In this document: positions 4,050-22,218 of the stretch, in pieces
Numbering within the stretch: the first letter of the stretch is position 1
Layout: every line of letters begins with the position of its first letter
Source of the DNA: a virus
IMG/VR virus record: IMGVR_UViG_3300025652_000620
Span: 1-22,333 of that record
Direction: 5' to 3' (one strand)
DNA: 22,333 nt
Made by a program: the position numbers and the translations under genes
The notes under the pieces: model-generated
The model's database searches: none
Seen by the model: the letters and a program-made list of their open reading frames with translations, nothing else
What the model was told of the DNA's origin: nothing

Positions 4050-4409
4050 TTACAGTTTTTTCAAGAGCGAACGAATGATGTTGAATCGGTTTTCAGAGGC
4101 GTTAACGGTAAACGCCCGATTTTCCTCATCAACGTAGTACAGCTCACCGGTTGGCAGCCAAATGTATTTCGTGTCAGGAGCAGCAGGTACACGGAAGGCG
4201 CTGCGAGGTCGCCAGTTGCTGCGCACCAAGGCGTCAACAAAGGCATTCAGGCGATCGTCCTTGCGGCGACCCAGATCGATCTTGCGTCGGCCAACGAAAG
4301 ATGGGGTGTGAATCGCTGCGGTGCCTGCGTCGTGGATCGCCAACTTCTTTGTTTCAATATCCAGCTGGAAGCTAAAGTTCGTGTCGGTAACAGTGATTGT
4401 TTTCTGCAT
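4050..4409 (-). CDS. Hypothetical protein (119 aa)
   Basis: 119 residues, ATG preceded by GAGGAAAATAA. The N-terminus (MQKTITVTDTNFSFQLDI) is beta-rich. A central basic helix (GRRKIDLGRRKDDRLNAFVDALVRS) and a basic C-terminus (NIIRSLLKKL) suggest possible nucleic-acid contact, which is only an inference. It follows DNA polymerase by 9 nt. No family is recognised. Confidence 0.7.
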   Translation of the reverse strand: MQKTITVTDTNFSFQLDIETKKLAIHDAGTAAIHTPSFVGRRKIDLGRRKDDRLNAFVDALVRSNWRPRSAFRVPAAPDTKYIWLPTGELYYVDEENRAFTVNASENRFNIIRSLLKKL

Positions 4410-4418
4410 TTATTTTCC

Positions 4419-6278
4419 TCAATGGACTTCGAACCAGTCGAGTCCTATCTTAGCTTCGCCATCCATAATATCCACCCCAAACCATTTCGGGGCTTCAGCA
4501 AAGCCTTCTCTTGCGATTATAGCCGCTCTCTCTGCTTGATCTTCTCTGACCAAGAAAGCTAGTTCATCATGGTACATGATAAGCGGCTGCCAATCAAAAC
4601 CCTCTGAATCCAGACGATCTTGAATCATTGCAACTGCAGCAGCACAGGTGATCTTTTCAGCTGACTGCAGAAGGTAGTTGAGAGACTTGTGATCAGAGTC
4701 TACGAAGATGGGGCGCGTATCCAACGCGTAAATGTGTGGTTTCCCAGTCTTCTTGTCTGTGACCTTGTACATCTGTTTTAGCCTTGCGACCAATGTATCA
4801 AATCCTGGAATCGCTTTCAGGAACTTGTCTCTTACTTTTCGCCCTAGAGACGCGTCACGCTTACCTGAGATGATCAACCCCAGCTTAGCGTCACCGCCTC
4901 CAAAGATTAGCGCGTAGAAGAACGCCTTAGCCTTTCGACGACCACCGTCTCCTAGCGGACCCAGAATGCTTTCCAAGACTTCAAGGTTAGCACTGTGGAT
5001 GTCGACCTCGATAACTTTCCGAGTGTAGTCTTCGTTCTTCAAATAGTGGCAGAGTGCCCTATTCTGGTTCGAGGAGCTATCAGCTCCCACCACCTTATAC
5101 CCAGGTATAGTAGAAAACAACCTGCGTATCTCTGGCCCATACAGCGCGTCTGCTGAAGGGATGTTGGCAATGATCTGGTGCCTCGATCGACCAGTTGGAG
5201 TCCCGATGACGAAGGAGTCACCGTAGATGCGACCAGTCTCTCCGTTGTAGTCAGTCTCTACCCAAGTCCGTAGGATAGAGTGTCGAGCTCTGATTGTGTA
5301 GAACTCACTTATCATCTTGCCGATCTCTCCGAGAGGCTCAAGGGAAGACTCAGACAGCTTTGGTGTTGTCTTTGTCAGTTTGCCATTGATCATCTTGAAG
5401 TTCCAGTCGTCAGGCACCCAACCTATTCGGTAGAGGTATTCCTTGACTAGGTCTGTCGAGCCCACCTTGATGTCGATGTACTCCACTCGGCAGTAGTCAT
5501 CAGTCACGGGCCTCTTCCCTTCCTGACCCTCGGAAGGCTCAAGGTCAAACCACTCATAGGTTCTTTTGGCGTAGTCGCCGTTAGCAACCCAAGCAGTTGA
5601 CTTGAATTCAGGATTACGATCCACTTGTTTGCACTTCTTACCCATCTTAGGCTCGACGTAACTAGCGATCTCTTCCATTCTATCTTCTAATGTTTTCATC
5701 AGCTTACGTGCGCCAACGATATCAAAGGGCCAACCATGAAGCTGAGCACGTCCCACAAACTGTGAAGCTCCGTGCTCCGCTTTCAATCCAAGCTTAATGG
5801 CCTTCTGATTTTTCTTACGCGACAATTCCGCTAGCAGCTTGTTGTAAACGGCTAGATTGATCTCAACATCTTCTCTACAGCGATGACGCATTTCCTTGCT
5901 GTATTTTGACCAGTCTTCGTGCTTTGGTTTTTCTCGACCAAGAGCCGTACCCCAGCGGGCAAGACTATGACCAAACCCAAAGCGCTTGTAGTTAAGAACT
6001 TGAGACATTACCAGTGTGTCCACCAGCTTCTGCCTCTTCGGTCGCCACCCAAAGAGCTTCTCAAGGACCAACATGTCGTACAGAAGTATGTTATGTCCTA
6101 CCAGCATACGACTGTTCTCAAGTAACTTAAAAAATTCAGAGAGAGGGGGTAACTCGGGATCGTAGTCGGAAAACTCAAACCACTCCCCAGAGTCTGTATC
6201 AACTGCAACAGCTATCCAGACCTTACTTACCTCTTTCAGCAACCCATCGCATTCAATGTCAAATACAATAGATCGCAT
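4419..6278 (-). CDS. DNA polymerase, family A (T7 gp5-like)
   Basis: Replicative polymerase of 619 residues with 3'-5' exonuclease. Exonuclease motifs: FDIECDG (D7, E9), HNILLYD near 62-68, and HRCREDVEIN near 132-140. Polymerase motifs: A is GADSSSNQNR (D400), B is RRKAKAFFYALIF (R447, K451, Y455), C is YHDE (D571, E572). The motif A position that is Glu in T7 (E480) is Gln405, and T7 Tyr530 corresponds to Phe459. The protein is about 85 residues shorter than T7 gp5; whether a thioredoxin-binding insert exists in the thumb (residues 210-310) cannot be seen. I start at the ATG at 6278, which shares TGATG with the preceding stop, rather than the in-frame TTG one codon earlier. AAGGAAAGT is the Shine-Dalgarno. 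Confidence 0.95.
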   Translation of the reverse strand: MRSIVFDIECDGLLKEVSKVWIAVAVDTDSGEWFEFSDYDPELPPLSEFFKLLENSRMLVGHNILLYDMLVLEKLFGWRPKRQKLVDTLVMSQVLNYKRFGFGHSLARWGTALGREKPKHEDWSKYSKEMRHRCREDVEINLAVYNKLLAELSRKKNQKAIKLGLKAEHGASQFVGRAQLHGWPFDIVGARKLMKTLEDRMEEIASYVEPKMGKKCKQVDRNPEFKSTAWVANGDYAKRTYEWFDLEPSEGQEGKRPVTDDYCRVEYIDIKVGSTDLVKEYLYRIGWVPDDWNFKMINGKLTKTTPKLSESSLEPLGEIGKMISEFYTIRARHSILRTWVETDYNGETGRIYGDSFVIGTPTGRSRHQIIANIPSADALYGPEIRRLFSTIPGYKVVGADSSSNQNRALCHYLKNEDYTRKVIEVDIHSANLEVLESILGPLGDGGRRKAKAFFYALIFGGGDAKLGLIISGKRDASLGRKVRDKFLKAIPGFDTLVARLKQMYKVTDKKTGKPHIYALDTRPIFVDSDHKSLNYLLQSAEKITCAAAVAMIQDRLDSEGFDWQPLIMYHDELAFLVREDQAERAAIIAREGFAEAPKWFGVDIMDGEAKIGLDWFEVH

Positions 6279-6481
6279 CAACTTTCCTTGAAGGGCACTA
6301 CATCTAATTGCAGATTAGAGTTAATCTGTTTAGCTTGACGTACCAAGGTCTTCGCACCCGCCAGAGAGTAGGGGGCAGTGGGGAAACCTAGCTTTCGGAG
6401 AATTGATTTTTGTTGAAAACCACGTCCACCTTTATAAGTGTTTTTATCGTTTTTGTCGATGACTACGTAGTCGTTTGCCAT
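6278..6481 (-). CDS. Small basic hypothetical protein (67 aa)
   Basis: 67 residues, ATG preceded by AAGGAACTGTAACA. The sequence is basic and helical (KGGRGFQQKSILRKLGF, GAKTLVRQAKQ), as in small nucleic-acid-binding phage proteins, but no family is recognised. Its stop overlaps the DNA polymerase start, implying translational coupling. It may be a polymerase accessory protein; this is only suggested by position. Confidence 0.65.
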   Translation of the reverse strand: MANDYVVIDKNDKNTYKGGRGFQQKSILRKLGFPTAPYSLAGAKTLVRQAKQINSNLQLDVVPFKES

Positions 6482-7344: not shown

Positions 7345-7607
7345 CTCCTGACTCCAGTTCTTTCAATTAAGTTCTTCTGTAGCTGGTCAAACTCAATAGT
7401 CTTACGAAATACGGCAACAAGACCAGTCTCTAGGTGTTTGGCCTTGATACCAGCGTTGGTCCAGCCCATCCGCTTGATCTTCATAAAGAACCTAGCCGCT
7501 TCTTCGGGCTTGAAGACTACTCGGTTTGGACCCGAGTCGAGGTCGGAGTGGATCGCGAAGCTCCAAACAGCGTTCCTACGCTTGAGATTACCTCTTCTTT
7601 TACCCAT
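7341..7607 (-). CDS. Small basic hypothetical protein (88 aa)
   Basis: 88 residues with a very basic start (MGKRRGNLKRRN), then WSFAIHSDLDSGPNRVVFKPEEAARFFMKI. The first 91 nt overlap the 3' end of the HD hydrolase gene in another frame, so a shorter form is possible. The 3' end is coupled to the nucleotidyltransferase-like gene by ATGA. No family is recognised. Confidence 0.55.
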   Translation of the reverse strand: MGKRRGNLKRRNAVWSFAIHSDLDSGPNRVVFKPEEAARFFMKIKRMGWTNAGIKAKHLETGLVAVFRKTIEFDQLQKNLIERTGVRR

Positions 7608-8164
7608 TGCAACAAACTCTCTTGCTTTGTTTCTGTTTTAAACTCTGAGAAGCAAGGTTCTACTTGTTCCCAAACTCCGAGGGCGATTGCCTGCGCCTTG
7701 ACCAGCCGCTCTTGACTGGCGAAACCGACCGTGGAAACGATCTCAGGTCGGCTGACCAATGTGAAGAAATGCGACTCAAGTCGGTCCGCAAACTTCAACC
7801 AGACCTTCTCACTCGCTGTCAGATCGTACTGTGGGACCCCCGCTGCCCTCGCCATCTCGTGCTCCAACTCAGCGTGTTTAGCTGCCAGTTCTGGGTTGGC
7901 GACCTTGGCTGGGTAGGGTACGTCACCAGCCCAGCGCTCTCCACCGTCATGGAAGATAGCTGCCTTGATCAGTTCAAGGGAAGGATCTGGATGCAGCTTG
8001 AACAACAAGGCTGCGCACCCCCACTGGTGGTCAGCGTCGGTTTGCCCAAAGATAGACATGTAGGGGTTTGCGTGGTATCGGATCACTCGACCCGACTCGT
8101 AAACGTTCTGCAGTTCTGGGTGGAGTTCGTACTCAGTGAACGAATTGGCTTTTACAGTGTCCAA
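7517..8164 (-). CDS. HD-domain phosphohydrolase (YfbR/DatZ-like)
   Basis: 215 residues from a TTG start preceded by AAAGGAGTGATATAAA. An HD-domain metal site is visible: H31, H46 (ADHQWG), H72-D73 (FHDGGE), then GDVPYPAK at 80-86 and D127 (FADRLE). The GD.P.P.K motif is typical of the YfbR 5'-deoxynucleotidase group, to which phage dATP triphosphohydrolases such as DatZ are related. It would act on purine deoxynucleotides, but the substrate is inferred. The C-terminal 30 residues overlap the next gene and look unstructured (ASRSTPTSTRVQTE). It lies a few small genes from a second dNTP-hydrolase-like gene (8801-9166), suggesting control of the dNTP pool. Confidence 0.75.
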   Translation of the reverse strand: MDTVKANSFTEYELHPELQNVYESGRVIRYHANPYMSIFGQTDADHQWGCAALLFKLHPDPSLELIKAAIFHDGGERWAGDVPYPAKVANPELAAKHAELEHEMARAAGVPQYDLTASEKVWLKFADRLESHFFTLVSRPEIVSTVGFASQERLVKAQAIALGVWEQVEPCFSEFKTETKQESLLQWVKEEVISSVGTLFGASRSTPTSTRVQTE

Positions 8165-8655: not shown

Positions 8656-8804
8656 ACGGCCACCTCAACAAACGACGGGGCCAGAGCCTCAGCCACTTGC
8701 CTATCGTATTCTTCCGCCATGAACTTGAGTATAGCGTCAGCAACTTCCTCGGGTGTTCCGGGAGTATCTCTGATCACTTCAGCGACTTGACTCTTTAGTG
8801 TCAT
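8640..8804 (-). CDS. Small hypothetical protein (54 aa)
   Basis: 54 residues from an ATG that overlaps the stop of the dATP/dGTP hydrolase-like gene (ATGA). The sequence (MTLKSQVAEVIRDTPGTPEE, then VADAILKFMAEEYDRQVAEA) is an amphipathic helical protein with an acidic-basic pattern. No family is recognised. Frame integrity, coupling and protein-like composition support it. Confidence 0.6.
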   Translation of the reverse strand: MTLKSQVAEVIRDTPGTPEEVADAILKFMAEEYDRQVAEALAPSFVEVAVSNST

Positions 8805-9166
8805 TGTAGGTCTAACTCCATTTGTTTCGACTCAACTGGTTTGATCTCTGGGCGGTCATCGTCACCGACTTTCCGATCCCAGTAAGTCACCAGCATTGCG
8901 GTGCAAGCGTGCATGTGGTAGACGTGAGGATAACCCGACTCAGGGTCGTTGTCTTCCCCTCGCCAGAAGGCCCAAGCATGACGCATCAAGGCCGCGAAGA
9001 CCCGTCCCCAACGCATACCACCTTCCCAGTTACGGTCAGCGTACTTGTTGGCTCCGTAGGTGAAGACCACAGCCGAAGCTATGACACTTTCCGGAGGCAC
9101 CAGGTCTACTCGTGGCTTGTCGCCGTCGTATTTATTTCCAATTACGTTTATCGTTGAGTCTGTCAT
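8801..9166 (-). CDS. dATP/dGTP diphosphohydrolase-like protein
   Basis: 121 residues from the ATG at 9166, with AAGGAGAAAGA upstream; the longer frame to 9199 is not needed. The run of motifs KYDGDKPRVDLVPPE, FTYGANKYADRNWEGGM, RHAWAFWRGEDNDPESGYPH and HMHACTAMLVTYW matches the phage dATP/dGTP diphosphohydrolase N-terminal domain family. All conserved Trp, Asp and His positions I know from the pattern are present. The expected reaction is hydrolysis of purine dNTPs to dNMP plus pyrophosphate; substrate preference cannot be seen. It is coupled by ATGA to the zinc protein upstream and to a 54-aa protein downstream. Confidence 0.75.
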   Translation of the reverse strand: MTDSTINVIGNKYDGDKPRVDLVPPESVIASAVVFTYGANKYADRNWEGGMRWGRVFAALMRHAWAFWRGEDNDPESGYPHVYHMHACTAMLVTYWDRKVGDDDRPEIKPVESKQMELDLQ

Positions 9167-9426
9167 TCTTTCTCCTTTTGATAACACTTTTCTCCGCACT
9201 CAGGGCATTGAAAGTAAGGGGGTAGTTTATTCCCGTCTGTATCGTAACCCTTTACATAAATCTCTTTACCAAACCTACCTCTATCTGGGTCTGCTCCGTA
9301 CATAGAAGCAGCATCCAGTGCCTTCTGCCAGTCACCTCCATACTCTTTCAGGAAGTGGGTGTAGATTCTCTCTCCATTCAGGTCAAAGTCACAATGCACA
9401 CACCTCCCATGGTTGTCGACTGTCAT
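9163..9426 (-). CDS. Zinc-ribbon-like small protein (87 aa)
   Basis: Two Cys pairs frame the protein: CVHC at residues 9-12 and CPECGEKC at 74-81, consistent with one structural zinc. The middle (THFLKEYGGDWQKALDAASMYG, GRFGKEIYV) resembles a conserved phage family of small zinc proteins of unknown role, often found near replication genes. No catalytic residues are evident. ATG at 9426; the stop overlaps the start of the hydrolase-like gene. Confidence 0.7.
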   Translation of the reverse strand: MTVDNHGRCVHCDFDLNGERIYTHFLKEYGGDWQKALDAASMYGADPDRGRFGKEIYVKGYDTDGNKLPPYFQCPECGEKCYQKEKE

Positions 9427-9739: not shown

Positions 9740-10122
9740 TAGCTAATTTCCTCACTGCTCAATAGGAGAGCTTTGCAGGCATCTTTGTGCAGGACGCCCT
9801 CATTCTTTTCCAGCTCAGGTAACAACTTACCGAAAGCATCATCAACTCGTTTCCAGCCTTTTTCAACTATCTGTGAAAGAACACCTGCGATGTTCATCCT
9901 GACGAGCTCGCTATCTTTATTCAGCTGGTATACCGAACCCGACTCTCCCTTGACGAACAAGTGAGGGTCATCATACGTCACGGCAGCGATCCCTGAATTC
10001 AGTTTCCAGGAATCACCATTAAGGTAACTACCTGAAGATCCCGCAAGAACCCTGTGGTGTGACTTGTCAGGTGATTCCACGATCACCCAGTTATCAAACT
10101 TCTGTAGCAAGCTACCCTCCAA
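9739..10122 (-). CDS. Hypothetical protein (127 aa)
   Basis: 127 residues. The N-terminal half is beta-rich and repetitive-looking (DNWVIVESPDKSHHRVLAGSS, DPHLFVKGESGSVYQL) and the C-terminal half helical (VLSQIVEKGWKRVDDAFGKLL). The start overlaps the previous gene by 11 nt and the stop touches the DUF1127 gene. No family is recognised. Confidence 0.65.
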   Translation of the reverse strand: MEGSLLQKFDNWVIVESPDKSHHRVLAGSSGSYLNGDSWKLNSGIAAVTYDDPHLFVKGESGSVYQLNKDSELVRMNIAGVLSQIVEKGWKRVDDAFGKLLPELEKNEGVLHKDACKALLLSSEEIS

Positions 10123-10474
10123 TCCATTGAATTATATCGACAAATCCTGATTCTTTGTCTTTCACATCGACGTATCTTGGACGAGCGATATACCCGTCTG
10201 GTGGAAAAACTTCCAGCCTTTCACGGCCCTCGCTGTCCATATCAAAGTGCATCAGGAACGACACCTTGATTCCTTCAAACTCTAGATCAAATTCAGCGTC
10301 TCCTGTGTGGACTAACTCATTTGCGAAAGTTACAGTAGCAACAGCGTCGGGGCTTGTTGGCTCATGTAGGTGGACGTAGCTGACTGCTTGGTTCTTTGCC
10401 CAGCTGTCACTCCAAGTGACCTTATCAGGGGCGACTGTTGAGACCGTTGCGGCGAGGATAAGCTCAGCTATCAT
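10112..10474 (-). CDS. Hypothetical protein (120 aa), possible signal-like start
   Basis: 120 residues. The first 15 residues (MIAELILAATVSTVA) are hydrophobic and could be a weak export signal, but there is no basic N-region. The remainder is beta-rich and acidic (DAEFDLEFEGIKVSFLMHFD). The start overlaps the upstream membrane protein by ATGA. No family is recognised, and whether it is exported is unclear. Confidence 0.65.
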   Translation of the reverse strand: MIAELILAATVSTVAPDKVTWSDSWAKNQAVSYVHLHEPTSPDAVATVTFANELVHTGDAEFDLEFEGIKVSFLMHFDMDSEGRERLEVFPPDGYIARPRYVDVKDKESGFVDIIQWIGG

Positions 10475-11471: not shown

Positions 11472-12844
11472 CTACGAGAACGCAAAATCGCTCTCTAACA
11501 CTTTTTTTATATCCAACTCGCCCTTCTTTGGAGCAAGGTCTAAACAGTCGAGTTGTCCCAGAACATCTTCAAGAGGCTCCGCTTCATAGAACTCGACAAA
11601 CTTCTCTCTAACCACTCGGAAGAGTGTAGAGATGTTCCCCGCCGTTGCGCCAAAAGAATCGTGACACAAGGACAGAGGGAAATCACAACCATCTGCCGTC
11701 AACATCAGGTGACAGGCATCGAAGCTGTGTACTAGATTTGGGGAAGCCCCTAGTCGTTGGGAGTCCTTAGACAGGACAGAGTTGTCCCAGTCTTCTAGCT
11801 GTATGTTCATTGACTGCCCAGCGTAGGACAGCTTAGTTCTTGCTACAGTGGGTTTACGATAGTTCTGAACAACAGGGAAGTTAGTGAACGGTGTCAACCA
11901 CTCAATGTGTTCTTCTCTCTCGTTAAACCTATCTGCTACAGTCTCAAACAACTGCAGCATGGACCCTAGCTTGTTGAGTCTCTTCCGAGAGACCTTGTGA
12001 AGCAGAGCCCCCAACTGGTTTGACCAGAGCTTTTCTTGCAACCCTAGATACTCGTTCATATCTCGAGTGTCATCCCAGATTTGTTGACCCATTCCGAAGG
12101 GCGTAGCCCCGTAGGACAACGTCATTACCCCTCGTTTAACAATCTTCCGTATAAGCTTGGGATCTTTAATCCTCCGCCAATACGCTGGAAAAAGAGCCTC
12201 TCTGAGGACCCTGTTATTGTTTCGATAGGTCTGTACAGCCTCCCAGGCGTTAGCCTTCTTCTCGGAGCCCCTTGGAGCTGTGTCGTAGTTTGTCTGAAGC
12301 CTAGTAGTCTCTTCAAGAACGTTATCAAGCCTTGAAAAGACCGCTGCAGGTAGCCTCATCTCCAGCATCTCTAGTTCGTCCCAGAGCAACTTCCCTACGT
12401 AGGCGTAGAGATCTCCGGGAGTATCGAGAGGTACAAGATTGACGTAAGGTGCTAGCTGCTCATCACGTGCCATTGCTGCTAGGTGCTGCGAACCGTTGTT
12501 GGATCCGTCAAGCGCAACAGGAAGACACGACATGAAAGTTTCTTGTTCGTTACCCTTGGCAACCCAGTCTGCAAGGAGGTTTAACTCCATACACGTCGCT
12601 AGGAAGACAAAGGGTTTGTCAGCCTTGAACCACCCAGTATTGTTGTAGGGGTCCTGAGCATAACTAAGGAACTCTTCATGTTTGTTGAGTGCCCATTCAG
12701 CTCTGTCATCTAGAGATATCTTGTCGTTACCGAAGCAGTTAGCTGCCTGAACTAACAGCCAGTAAAAACCGTCTTCGCCTATCTCGTCTCCTTTCGCTAG
12801 TAGTAACAAGCCCTTGGCGGTGTCACTAGCTTGCTCGTGAAAAA
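11472..12844 (-). CDS. Phage RNA polymerase, exon 2 (C-terminal 457 codons)
   Basis: Second exon of the single-subunit T7-family RNA polymerase. Joined to exon 1 it completes A-FFHEQASDTAKGLLLLAKG, matching the T7 NPQGNDMTKGLLTLAKG region. In the spliced numbering motif A is ALDGSNNGSQH (D383), motif B is KRGVMTLSYG (K507, Y515), and motif C is CHDSFG (D666), corresponding to T7 D537, K631, Y639 and D812. The specificity-loop region is near EWLTPFTNFPVVQNYRKP. The C-terminus LESDFAFS matches the T7 FAFA foot. Without splicing, translation would need the TTG at 12809, which has no Shine-Dalgarno; an independent second subunit is therefore unlikely. Exons total 2184 nt, exactly 728 codons with stop. 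Confidence 0.93.
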
Positions 12845-13127
12845 CATTATGTTCACTGAGGATCGTTAGCTCTCAGCCGTTTGTGGAGATGTCTGAATGT
12901 TTTGCCCTTTTCCGAAACAGCATGCCATTTTTCTTGCATTTTTTCTCCATAACTGCTGCATGTCACCATGCAGATCGGACTATATCATCACCAAATTGGT
13001 GCCTCGCGCTTCGAACCACTTGGCTCTACATAATAGTCTCTACACCTTCCCGTCAGGGCTTGGCTCGGTATTGTCTGCCTGGCACAGATGTCCACCGAAT
13101 TCACGAGGTTTATACAACGCCTTTACA
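12845..13127 (-). ncRNA. Group I intron in RNA polymerase gene (283 nt, no large ORF)
   Basis: On the minus strand the canonical core can be folded by eye. P1 pairs exon ACAGCGU (13134-13128) with guide GCGUUGU (13120-13114), giving the U-G splice pair. P3 is CCTCGTG (13108-13102) with CGCGAGG (13008-13002). P4 is TCGGT with ACCGA (13098-13094, 13069-13065). P6/P6a is GCC..CCC/GGG..GGT. P7 is GACTA (13038-13034) with TAGTC (12982-12978), in the consensus contexts GTAGAGACTA and GATATAGTCC. P8 is CACCA/TGGTG (13001-12989). P9 is CTGCATG-GTGA-CATGCAG (12973-12956). A P7.1-like stem (AGCC/GGTT) suggests subgroup IA. The intron ends in G at 12845. It has no endonuclease ORF; only a 25-codon frame near the 3' end, which I do not call a gene. 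Confidence 0.93.
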
Positions 13128-13938
13128 ACGCTGTGTTGCAGTAAACTCGACCCCTGAAATCTGTGTTGTACAGGTGGTAGAAGTTTGTCTCTAGATGTTT
13201 CTTTGCTAGACGATAGACACTGCTAGTCTCTATGTACAATGACTCACGTCGTTGTTGGTTCTCCTCGCTTGTGAATTTCAGAGGATTGTCGTCTAGCTCG
13301 TTGTTGATGAAGTACTCTATGACCTCGAACATTGGCTTGTTAACCATCCAGGCCGTCTGTCCAAGCTTGTTTAACATATTGAAAACAATAGGCTGTTTCT
13401 CCGGGCTGAACCCTTTGATGATACCTGGACGAGACTTTTTCACGATACCAATTCCGGTTTCGTGCATCCCACTAACCCAAGGGGCAGGAGGAACGTTGGA
13501 GGGGAAGAGGTCAATATTTTCTTCCTCAACAATTTGATCCCACAGTTCCATCAGGGCCTTCTTGTCCTTGACCAATATCTGGTAGGTCAAGTACTTGGAA
13601 GTCCTGTTTCGTTTAGTCTTGACGTGCTGAAGTCGATGCTCAATCAGACCCGCCTCTATGTAGGATACTAGAACAAACCACCCTGTGTGGCAAGCTCTAA
13701 TGGAGTTTCTTGGTAGCCTCAGCTGTTGCATGATTCTTCGGCCAACGCTGACCGACATGTCCACCAGTGTGGCTTTTCTCTCGATTGCCTTCAGCACCGT
13801 GGCAAACGAGTTGAGAATGATTTCTCTAGCGTCATGTTCCTTGAGATAAACAGTGTGGGTGTGCCTGTCTGCTCTCAACGACTCTTGCCGCTCTTCTAGG
13901 TCGGTAATTAATCGCTCAAGTACGAGACTCAATAACAT
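13128..13938 (-). CDS. Phage RNA polymerase, exon 1 (N-terminal 270 codons)
   Basis: First exon of the single-subunit polymerase that transcribes phage genes from its own promoters. It ends with the conserved YNTDFRGRVYCNTA region, the DxRGRVY motif of T7 RNA polymerase (near residue 424 there). It then reads TTG-TAA in unspliced RNA, so intron removal is needed. The start is the ATG at 13938, immediately after GAGGAGG, or the TTG at 13932, which has better spacing to the same Shine-Dalgarno. A longer frame to 14007 overlaps a better small gene. Only about 260 residues precede DFRGRVY, against about 420 in T7, so the N-terminal promoter-binding domain is short. An SP6-like promoter ends 19 nt upstream. 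Confidence 0.92.
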
Positions 13939-14074
13939 CCTCCTCTGTCGTTTCTGCTTTATCGTTACCTGGTGCGGGGTCTTCGTAGGTGTGTCCCCAC
14001 TTCTCATCTAACTGCCGAACCATTGATGAGAACCCAAGATTGTCGTCCTCCTGCTCTTTTTTCTTATTCTTCAA
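13916..14074 (-). CDS. Small acidic protein upstream of RNA polymerase (52 aa)
   Basis: A frame from a TTG at 14074 (AAAGGA 8 nt upstream) encodes a polar protein: KNKKKEQEDDNLGFSSMVRQ, then LDEKWGHTYEDPAPGNDK and an acidic end. It overlaps the RNA polymerase start by about 20 nt. The phage promoter motif lies inside it, so this gene would be skipped by transcripts starting there. An internal ATG would give 33 residues. No family is recognised. Confidence 0.5.
   Translation of the reverse strand: MKNKKKEQEDDNLGFSSMVRQLDEKWGHTYEDPAPGNDKAETTEEDVIESRT
13957..13973 (-). promoter_or_regulatory. SP6-like phage promoter before RNA polymerase
   Basis: The minus-strand sequence ACCAGGTAACGATAAAG is identical over 17 bases to the copy at 20503 and differs by one base from that at 17203. 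Its AGGTAACGATAAAG core resembles the SP6 promoter AGGTGACACTATAG. Taking the last G as +1, the leader to the polymerase ATG is 19 nt and contains only the Shine-Dalgarno. The position suggests that the polymerase amplifies its own expression. Promoter activity is inferred from repetition and spacing. Confidence 0.75.
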
Positions 14075-20854: not shown

Positions 20855-21136
20855 TTATTCTATCTCCCTCAGTCCGTCAACCTCTCTAACAGGCTCCACA
20901 GTGAGACTCTGAGCAATGACGTCTCGTTCTGTTATTTCCCAGGTATGACCCCTCTCACAGACGAAGCGTTTTGTTGTAGTCTCGCCGTTCTTGTCCCTAA
21001 AGTAGTCTTGCTCAAGGGTTGTGATACCGACAATACGGACCTGTAGTTGATTGTGTGTTGTACTCAGTATCCTGACCACCAATTTAGCATGAGGGATGTA
21101 AACCAGCGGCTGAGTCTCCTTGATGTATATCTCCAT
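20855..21136 (-). CDS. Tandem paralogue 1 (93 aa)
   Basis: Start at the ATG at 21136 (AAAAGGAAA before it) so that MEIYIKETQPLVYIP aligns with its neighbours. It has the family end motif FVCERGHTWEITERD (C-E-x-G-x-x-W-x-I-T-x-R-D), then an acidic tail. The N-terminal LGR of the neighbours is replaced by KLVVRIL, so it is the more divergent member. Expected fold is a small beta barrel. The function is unknown. Confidence 0.65.
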   Translation of the reverse strand: MEIYIKETQPLVYIPHAKLVVRILSTTHNQLQVRIVGITTLEQDYFRDKNGETTTKRFVCERGHTWEITERDVIAQSLTVEPVREVDGLREIE

Positions 21137-21393
21137 TTTCCTTTTTCCTTCAACAAAGTCTTTCTCTTTCGAAAGTCTATCTTCGCGATGAACCATCGTC
21201 GACCTTGCACACAAACCATTGCTTCTTCAAAAGAGAGCAGATGCTGCCGCCGAAGATGGCGAGAGATCACCTGGCCTTGTTCGTCTAAAAGAGGTACAAG
21301 GGCTAAGCAACCGTGTCTCGAACCCACTATTCGACCTACGTAAGACCCTTTGTAGAAGAACAACGGACCGTCGTTTCCAAAGTTAACTACCAT
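21064..21393 (-). CDS. Tandem paralogue 2 (109 aa, longer tail)
   Basis: MVVNFGNDGPLFFYKGSYVG aligns with the array's N-terminal motif, and MVCVQGRRWFIAKID with the C-terminal one (Glu replaced by Val). After this it continues about 35 residues beyond the usual end and overlaps the next gene by 73 nt, probably because an ancestral stop was lost. GGAGACGGGGCA precedes the ATG. Confidence 0.6.
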   Translation of the reverse strand: MVVNFGNDGPLFFYKGSYVGRIVGSRHGCLALVPLLDEQGQVISRHLRRQHLLSFEEAMVCVQGRRWFIAKIDFRKRKTLLKEKGKWRYTSRRLSRWFTSLMLNWWSGY

Positions 21394-21674
21394 TGCCCCG
21401 TCTCCCTCTCATGCTCCACAAGTGTGATTCTTGTTGTCGAGTAGTTCACCGACTCCACCACCCAAGACCACCCCTGTTCGCAGATCAGAGGCTGACGGCC
21501 AACACTATTCAGAAAAGGCCTCTTGAGAAAACGAGTCTTAGACCTATAACCGACGGCGACTACTCTGAATGCAAGGCTATCACCCTCGTACTCGACCAGC
21601 GTACCGAGGTGGGAAGTACTTGTTATAAAGAATAACGGAGACTCTTCGACATAGTCGATAATCATTTTCTTCAT
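21387..21674 (-). CDS. Tandem paralogue 3 (95 aa)
   Basis: MKKMIIDYVEESPLFFITST followed by LGTLVEYEGDSLAFRVVAVG, then LICEQGWSWVV. It matches the array pattern: acidic residue before PLF, an LG/T turn, then C-E-x-G-x-x-W. AAAGGGGATAACCA before the ATG; a second ATG three codons later aligns better with paralogues 4 and 5. It overlaps gene 2 by 7 nt. The function is unknown. Confidence 0.65.
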   Translation of the reverse strand: MKKMIIDYVEESPLFFITSTSHLGTLVEYEGDSLAFRVVAVGYRSKTRFLKRPFLNSVGRQPLICEQGWSWVVESVNYSTTRITLVEHERETGQW

Positions 21675-21677
21675 TGG

Positions 21678-21938
21678 TTATCCCCTTTGTTCCAGAGCAA
21701 GAACCTGCTCCTCAAGATCTCGCCGCGTGATCCTCCATCTGTGACCCGCTTCGCAGTAAAGATAGCTCTCACTCGTGGCGAACCGTATTGGCTTCTCGAG
21801 GCACTTAAAGCGGTTACCAGTTATGAGACCAAAGACCGTGAGGTTCATCGAGTACTGACGAAGCTTCTGCACACGGCCCAGACAACTGCAGCTCGGAAAG
21901 TAGAATAGTGGGGAGTTGTCCCCGCAGTTAATGATCAT
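21678..21938 (-). CDS. Tandem paralogue 4 (86 aa)
   Basis: Start at the ATG at 21938 (AAGGAGACCTGCTA upstream), giving MIINCGDNSPLFYFPSCSCL with GRV after it. The end reads YCEAGHRWRITRRDLEEQVL. It shares the CG.xxPLxYxPxCxCLGR signature most closely with paralogue 5, including a C-x-C pair that could bind metal. The longer frame to 21956 only adds bases inside the preceding gene. Confidence 0.7.
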   Translation of the reverse strand: MIINCGDNSPLFYFPSCSCLGRVQKLRQYSMNLTVFGLITGNRFKCLEKPIRFATSESYLYCEAGHRWRITRRDLEEQVLALEQRG

Positions 21939-22218
21939 TAGCAGGTCTCCTTGCATAAAGTTTCGTCATGACGGTTTGCTCGCTAGGGTCTCGCTTTGTC
22001 ACCGCCCAGCAGTCACCCCCCTCACAGTAAAAGAAGAGTTCATCCGTGGAATACGGGAACGGGTTGTCATACCACCAAAGTCCATGATTGGCCCGGCAGC
22101 CGACGACTTCCAACCGCAAGCTGTATTGAGCCACTCCCACTAGACGACCCAGGCAACCGCAGCCAGGGGGGTAGAGTAGCGGGGTGACACCCCCGCAGCC
22201 GATAACACGGTATTTCAT
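21928..22218 (-). CDS. Tandem paralogue 5 (96 aa)
   Basis: First gene of the array in reading direction. MKYRVIGCGGVTPLLYPPGC with GCLGRLVG next, then FYCEGGDCWAVTKRDPSEQ. AAGGAGTAGCGGG precedes the ATG. It overlaps paralogue 4 by 11 nt. Together with 4 it defines the consensus of the family. The function is unknown. Confidence 0.7.
   Translation of the reverse strand: MKYRVIGCGGVTPLLYPPGCGCLGRLVGVAQYSLRLEVVGCRANHGLWWYDNPFPYSTDELFFYCEGGDCWAVTKRDPSEQTVMTKLYARRPANDH

Follow-up and report, generated by a model that had tools for sequence, protein, structure and literature searches.

The stretch of phage DNA analyzed here (the window, 22,333 nucleotides) almost certainly carries a group I intron of the phage IA type, self-splicing and without an ORF, within the single-subunit RNA polymerase gene of a Naomviridae-like phage, and the intron is likely to derive from homing. 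The intron comprises 283 nt (positions 12845 to 13127; this and all other window features given below lie on the minus strand).

Two open frames of one RNA polymerase gene

The T7-type (single-subunit) RNA polymerase gene of the window is divided between two open frames, at 14007/13938-13123 and 12809-11472. The first matches PHROG RNA polymerase families (phrog_414, E 4e-17), and its ATG at 13938 is preceded by GAGGAGG, with an alternative upstream start possible at 14007. Exon 1 (13128-13938) consists of 270 codons and the first base of codon 271 and includes the DFRGR motif. Exon 2 (11472-12844) matches the Pfam RNA_pol family (PF00940, E 8e-79) and retains the catalytic motifs A, B, and C (DGSNNGSQHL, KRGVMTLSYG, and HDSFG), all of which align to T7 RNA polymerase. 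The exon 1 frame runs into a TAA one codon past the junction codon, where an unspliced mRNA would stop, and no ATG or GTG start was found near the beginning of the second frame; thus, a whole polymerase would require splicing.

Excision of 12845-13127 fuses the two frames (13938-13128 and 12844-11472) into 2,184 nt, corresponding to 727 codons plus a stop codon with no internal stop, and the arithmetic of the initial annotation, which had joined 13128 to 12844, therefore holds. The predicted ligated exon junction reads ACAGCGT-TTTTTCACG. The fused protein is uninterrupted through DFRGRVYCNTA-FFHEQ, as had been proposed from the nucleotide sequence, and aligns without a gap at the junction to its counterpart in roseophage DSS3_VP1 (DFRGRVYCNTAFFHEQASDTAKG versus DFRGRIYPNTAFLHEQSSDNAKG) and to all 79 IMG/VR relatives that cover the site, with identities ranging from approximately 60% for the closest to 38% for the most distant. 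The junction is ambiguous by 1 nt, the T at 13127 being the same base as that at 12844; it was set to 13128/12845 because this gives a U-G pair at the 5' splice site (U13128 opposite G13120) and an intron that ends in G (G12845). Alignment with T7 RNA polymerase places the insertion directly behind the D-W-R-G-R motif; counted from the D of the DxRGR motif, it splits the codon 11 residues further along, following that codon's first base.

The nearest named relative of the phage is DSS3_VP1 (Naomviridae), with 43% identity in the RNA polymerase, while identity to Autographiviridae is about 30%. Judged by this relative, the phage appears to be Naomviridae-like with a T7-type RNA polymerase and not the T7-like podovirus (Autographivirales) implied by the initial annotation. 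Two further genes of the window encode an HD-domain/YfbR-like nucleotidase (7517-8164; 33% identity to a DSS3_VP1 protein over 129 amino acids) and the N-terminal domain of a dATP/dGTP diphosphohydrolase (8801-9199; PF18909, E 1e-30). Nucleotide-pool enzymes such as these are associated with modified DNA in phages. The dU-DNA of DSS3_VP1 is made with an HD-family dTMP phosphatase (PMC12697855). Five adjacent small genes at 20855-22218 (positions 20855, 21064, 21387, 21678, and 21928) resemble diverged copies of one family, sharing the pattern '..PLxYxxxxSxxGR..' followed by '..CExGxRWxxxxxD..' and 18 to 28% identity to the first copy; no function was found for them.

Structure of the intron core

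The initial annotation had identified the insert in the RNA polymerase gene as a group I intron and named a covariance search as a check. Using cmscan, Intron_gpI (RF00028) was matched at 12956-13166 over the full model (1-253), scoring 75.5 bits where the gathering score is 50 (E 8e-18); this is the sole Rfam match in the 22-kb window, and it lies where the polymerase gene breaks. The first helix of the Rfam model (13166-13135) was rejected as P1, as it would place within the intron the invariant DFRGR residues that all homologues have in the protein. Since protein conservation fixes the 5' junction, this placement in the exon was regarded as a model artifact.

The predicted core is foldable as originally described, with P1 and its U-G pair, P3, P4, P6, P7, P8, P9, and GATATAGTCC present, and P5 and P7.2 were identified in addition. 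The 5' strand of P1 is formed by the end of exon 1 (ACAGCGU, 13128-13134), a conserved target whose last U is in the U-G pair, and its 3' strand by the internal guide sequence GCGUUGU (13114-13120). The 5' strand of P3, CCUCGUG (13102-13108), pairs with CGCGAGG (13002-13008), placed by comparative alignment. P4-P5 (13065-13098; P4 at 13094-13098/13065-13069 and P5 at 13085-13088/13074-13077), P6/P6a (13044-13064), and P8 (12989-13001) were located by both Rfam and the comparative alignment. The guanosine-binding helix P7 is formed by GACUA (13034-13038) and UAGUC (12978-12982), and its 3' strand together with J8/7 (AUGAUAUAGUCC, 12977-12988) is matched by Rfam and shared with T4-like introns. 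P9 (CUGCAUG-GUGA-CAUGCAG, 12956-12973) carries a GNRA loop, and P10 is short, at approximately 4 bp including one U-G. The 3' terminal domain, UAACGA...GAACAUAAUG (12845-12874), ends in G12845, and similar ends are found in the Draal03, KIL1, and cr116_1 introns.

Between P7 and the 3' strand of P3 lies the P7.2 hairpin (AGCC-AAGU-GGUU, 13014-13025), an IA-type peripheral element in which three of the four pairs covary across ten introns; P7.1 is short. This hairpin groups the intron with the IA class, which is common in phages. A P2 helix, as in the group IA2 intron of T4 td, was not found, as just AUAAA separates the guide sequence from P3. P2 is apparently also missing in the closest relatives, and the K1E and DSS3_VP1 introns look like the window intron here.

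Comparative support for the core is strong. The intron was aligned with nine other phage introns, namely, two from KIL1, two from ZH4, those in the terL genes of DSS3_VP1 and K1E, that of cr116_1, and those in the Draal03 RNA polymerase and CP1 DNA polymerase genes, the last two with their ORF insertions trimmed. In the named core structure 95.1% of cells pair, versus 77% in shuffled alignments (none of 500 shuffles reached 95.1%), and pairing falls to 34 to 42% when the partners are slid. Compensatory two-sided changes occur in 27 of the 43 core pairs. For the P3/P7 pseudoknot, six of the seven P3 pairs covary (97% paired) and P7 is invariant in the ten introns; P9 is 100% paired, with covariation in five of its seven pairs. 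Minimum free energy folding of the whole stretch gave no significance (z -1.29), which is expected as the ribozyme is pseudoknotted; it was set aside as evidence, and the weight is carried by the covariance match and the comparative data.

Insertion site and distribution in relatives

The target of the intron is conserved, as indicated by invariant bases at the site in 80 intronless homologues: in the motif A-C-N-G-C-N-T, A-7 is present in 79 of the 80 and C-6, G-4, C-3, and T-1 are present in every one. The guide sequence reads the conserved bases of the codons N-T-A-F. Together with the T7 alignment, this agrees with the earlier remark that the insertion falls right behind a conserved polymerase motif, and a target of this sort is what mobile introns usually choose.

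No intron occurs at this site in any of the 79 IMG/VR relatives that cover it or in the polymerase gene of DSS3_VP1, which is present in both sequence collections compared. Apart from DSS3_VP1, no record among the relatives contains a group I intron above threshold; most of these records are fragments, and ones nearly identical to the window may be missing. In a second sample, of 80 T7-type polymerase loci, no insertion longer than 150 nt was found, so neither sample of 80 IMG/VR loci yielded an intron. Salmonella phage LPST153 and the IMG/VR loci L117 and L135 were rejected as intron cases, having only frameshift-like breaks between abutting pieces. Searching IMG/VR with the exon and guide pattern at a single loop length identified 41 stretches, none encoding RNA polymerase. 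A core-specific pattern found one IMG/VR contig (L222) with an apparent group I intron at 9888-10130, in a phage structural gene region.

Mobility

No homing endonuclease is encoded in the intron, as no sense-strand ORF of at least 60 amino acids is present. A 25-codon mini-ORF (12873-12950) lies at the position of the endonuclease ORF of related introns; it has no PHROG family match and is possibly a decayed endonuclease remnant. We infer that the intron most likely arrived by homing and that it has lost, or never had, an endonuclease of its own, and it may persist because its splicing is clean.

ORF-less introns can be mobilized by a neighbor's enzyme, and the window does contain a gene for a free-standing SegE-like GIY-YIG endonuclease (2259-2630; PF19835, E 2e-16) beside an exonuclease gene. 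It is nonetheless unlikely that this enzyme mobilizes the intron in trans: its gene is 10 kb away, and DSS3_VP1 carries a homologue with 41% identity in the matching position, beside its own exonuclease gene, but has no RNA polymerase intron. As DSS3_VP1 has it too, the SegE-like gene was rejected as an intron-specific partner.

Predicted splicing and alternative readings

Judging by its structure, the intron most likely splices through the usual guanosine-dependent pathway in two steps. Pairing of the final seven bases of exon 1 with the internal guide sequence would form P1 in the precursor mRNA, and a guanosine bound in P7 would attack after U13128. The freed exon would then attack after G12845, joining the exons into the message for a 727-residue polymerase.

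The intron might instead be a regulatory switch, in which the splicing rate times production of the phage polymerase and hence of later genes. The polymerase gene would be a control point, and the unspliced message ends one codon past the junction codon. This reading is very unlikely, as the intron is not conserved (0 of 80 relatives) and no regulatory element was found; its absence from the relatives also means that such regulation is no shared feature. The statement in the initial annotation that splicing would gate phage transcription is unsupported. Still less credence is given to the broader proposal that this is the first intron at the DxRGR site of a single-subunit polymerase and that folding of the ribozyme controls phage transcription in an early-to-late switch.

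Least probable of the functional readings, and barely credible, is that the intron no longer splices, with the polymerase made as two fragments or the gene dead. Splicing is a prediction, and the intron has no endonuclease to keep it mobile, but both exons are open with all catalytic motifs kept, neither the core nor P7 is damaged, and a good start codon is lacking at the beginning of the second half. An assembly error in this one record, a single contig of an uncultured phage, is implausible as the origin of the insert because the error would have had to make a covarying ribozyme.

Comparison with known phage introns

The preferred reading, that of a self-splicing intron, describes a genuine mobile element of a fairly common sort. 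From the literature, public-record, and two 80-locus IMG/VR surveys, the intron belongs to a known kind, and its host gene is one for which introns have seldom been reported. The DxRGR-adjacent position is new among the sequences and literature searched, and that literature named no T7-type polymerase gene as holding an intron. The element extends the known range of phage group I introns by one host gene and one insertion site and leaves the understanding of introns or phage transcription unchanged. Being compact (283 nt) and located in a T7-type polymerase gene, it would be a handy substrate for splicing tests.

Introns in phage RNA polymerase genes appear, from the records compared, to be rare but not unique. 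Pseudomonas phage Draal03 (PP179319.1, 558-3792) has a T7-type RNA polymerase split by a group I intron that has an HNH/endonuclease VII-like ORF and a clear core on its 3' side. The polymerase gene is likewise split in the three sister isolates Draal01, Draal02, and Drael01 (the set being PP179319-22), where its first exon also matches. The Draal03 record annotates just two RNA polymerase coding sequences and names no intron, and the paper describing these phages leaves it unremarked (PMC11256456). The host gene family and intron type are those of the window, but the Draal intron interrupts motif B (KTPV|MTYVYG), some 240 residues beyond the window site, and, unlike the window intron, has an endonuclease-type ORF. 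T7-type RNA polymerase genes have therefore been targeted more than once, in the window phage and, unremarked, in Draal03, a warning that intron-split polymerases may be annotated as two broken genes.

In phage PhiPA3, an RNA polymerase gene contains a group I intron with an HNH nuclease, gp210, that harms a competitor (PMC11620839; PMC11878797), and the public record of AR9 has an intron in an RNA polymerase beta-subunit gene. In both, as in the window, a phage RNA polymerase gene is host to a group I intron. However, these are jumbo phages with multisubunit polymerases, and the PhiPA3 intron carries an active nuclease, whereas the window polymerase is single subunit and its intron has no nuclease. 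In Vibrio phage D265 (OZ195863), a short, weak intron-core match below the Rfam threshold and an HNH ORF lie by an N4-like RNA polymerase gene; this is apparently an RNA polymerase gene intron, but in an N4-type polymerase and at another place. The DNA polymerase genes of some T7-like phages hold group I introns (Bonocora and Shub 2004, as cited in PMC11878797), also in the gene for a key enzyme, but for DNA rather than RNA polymerase.

DSS3_VP1 itself (MN602266.1) carries a group I intron at 5201-5417 in terL (4390-6410), with 93.9 bits and an endonuclease VII-type ORF, and its first annotated terL coding sequence extends into the intron.

Overall, the window intron resembles introns that many phages have in their genes for terminase, DNA polymerase, and ribonucleotide reductase. 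It has the same core as the IA-kind introns of terL (KIL1, K1E, and DSS3_VP1), the DNA polymerase gene (Xanthomonas phage CP1), and td and nrdD (T4), all in other host genes and sites. An HNH or endonuclease VII-type ORF lies within or beside the introns of KIL1, K1E, and DSS3_VP1, whereas the window intron has none. Its nucleotide identity to a KIL1 intron reaches 72.6% over 161 nt, its J8/7-P7 region is 90 to 97% identical over 30 to 40 nt to T4-like td and nrdD introns, and it shares with the terL and CP1 introns a P7.2 hairpin without P2.
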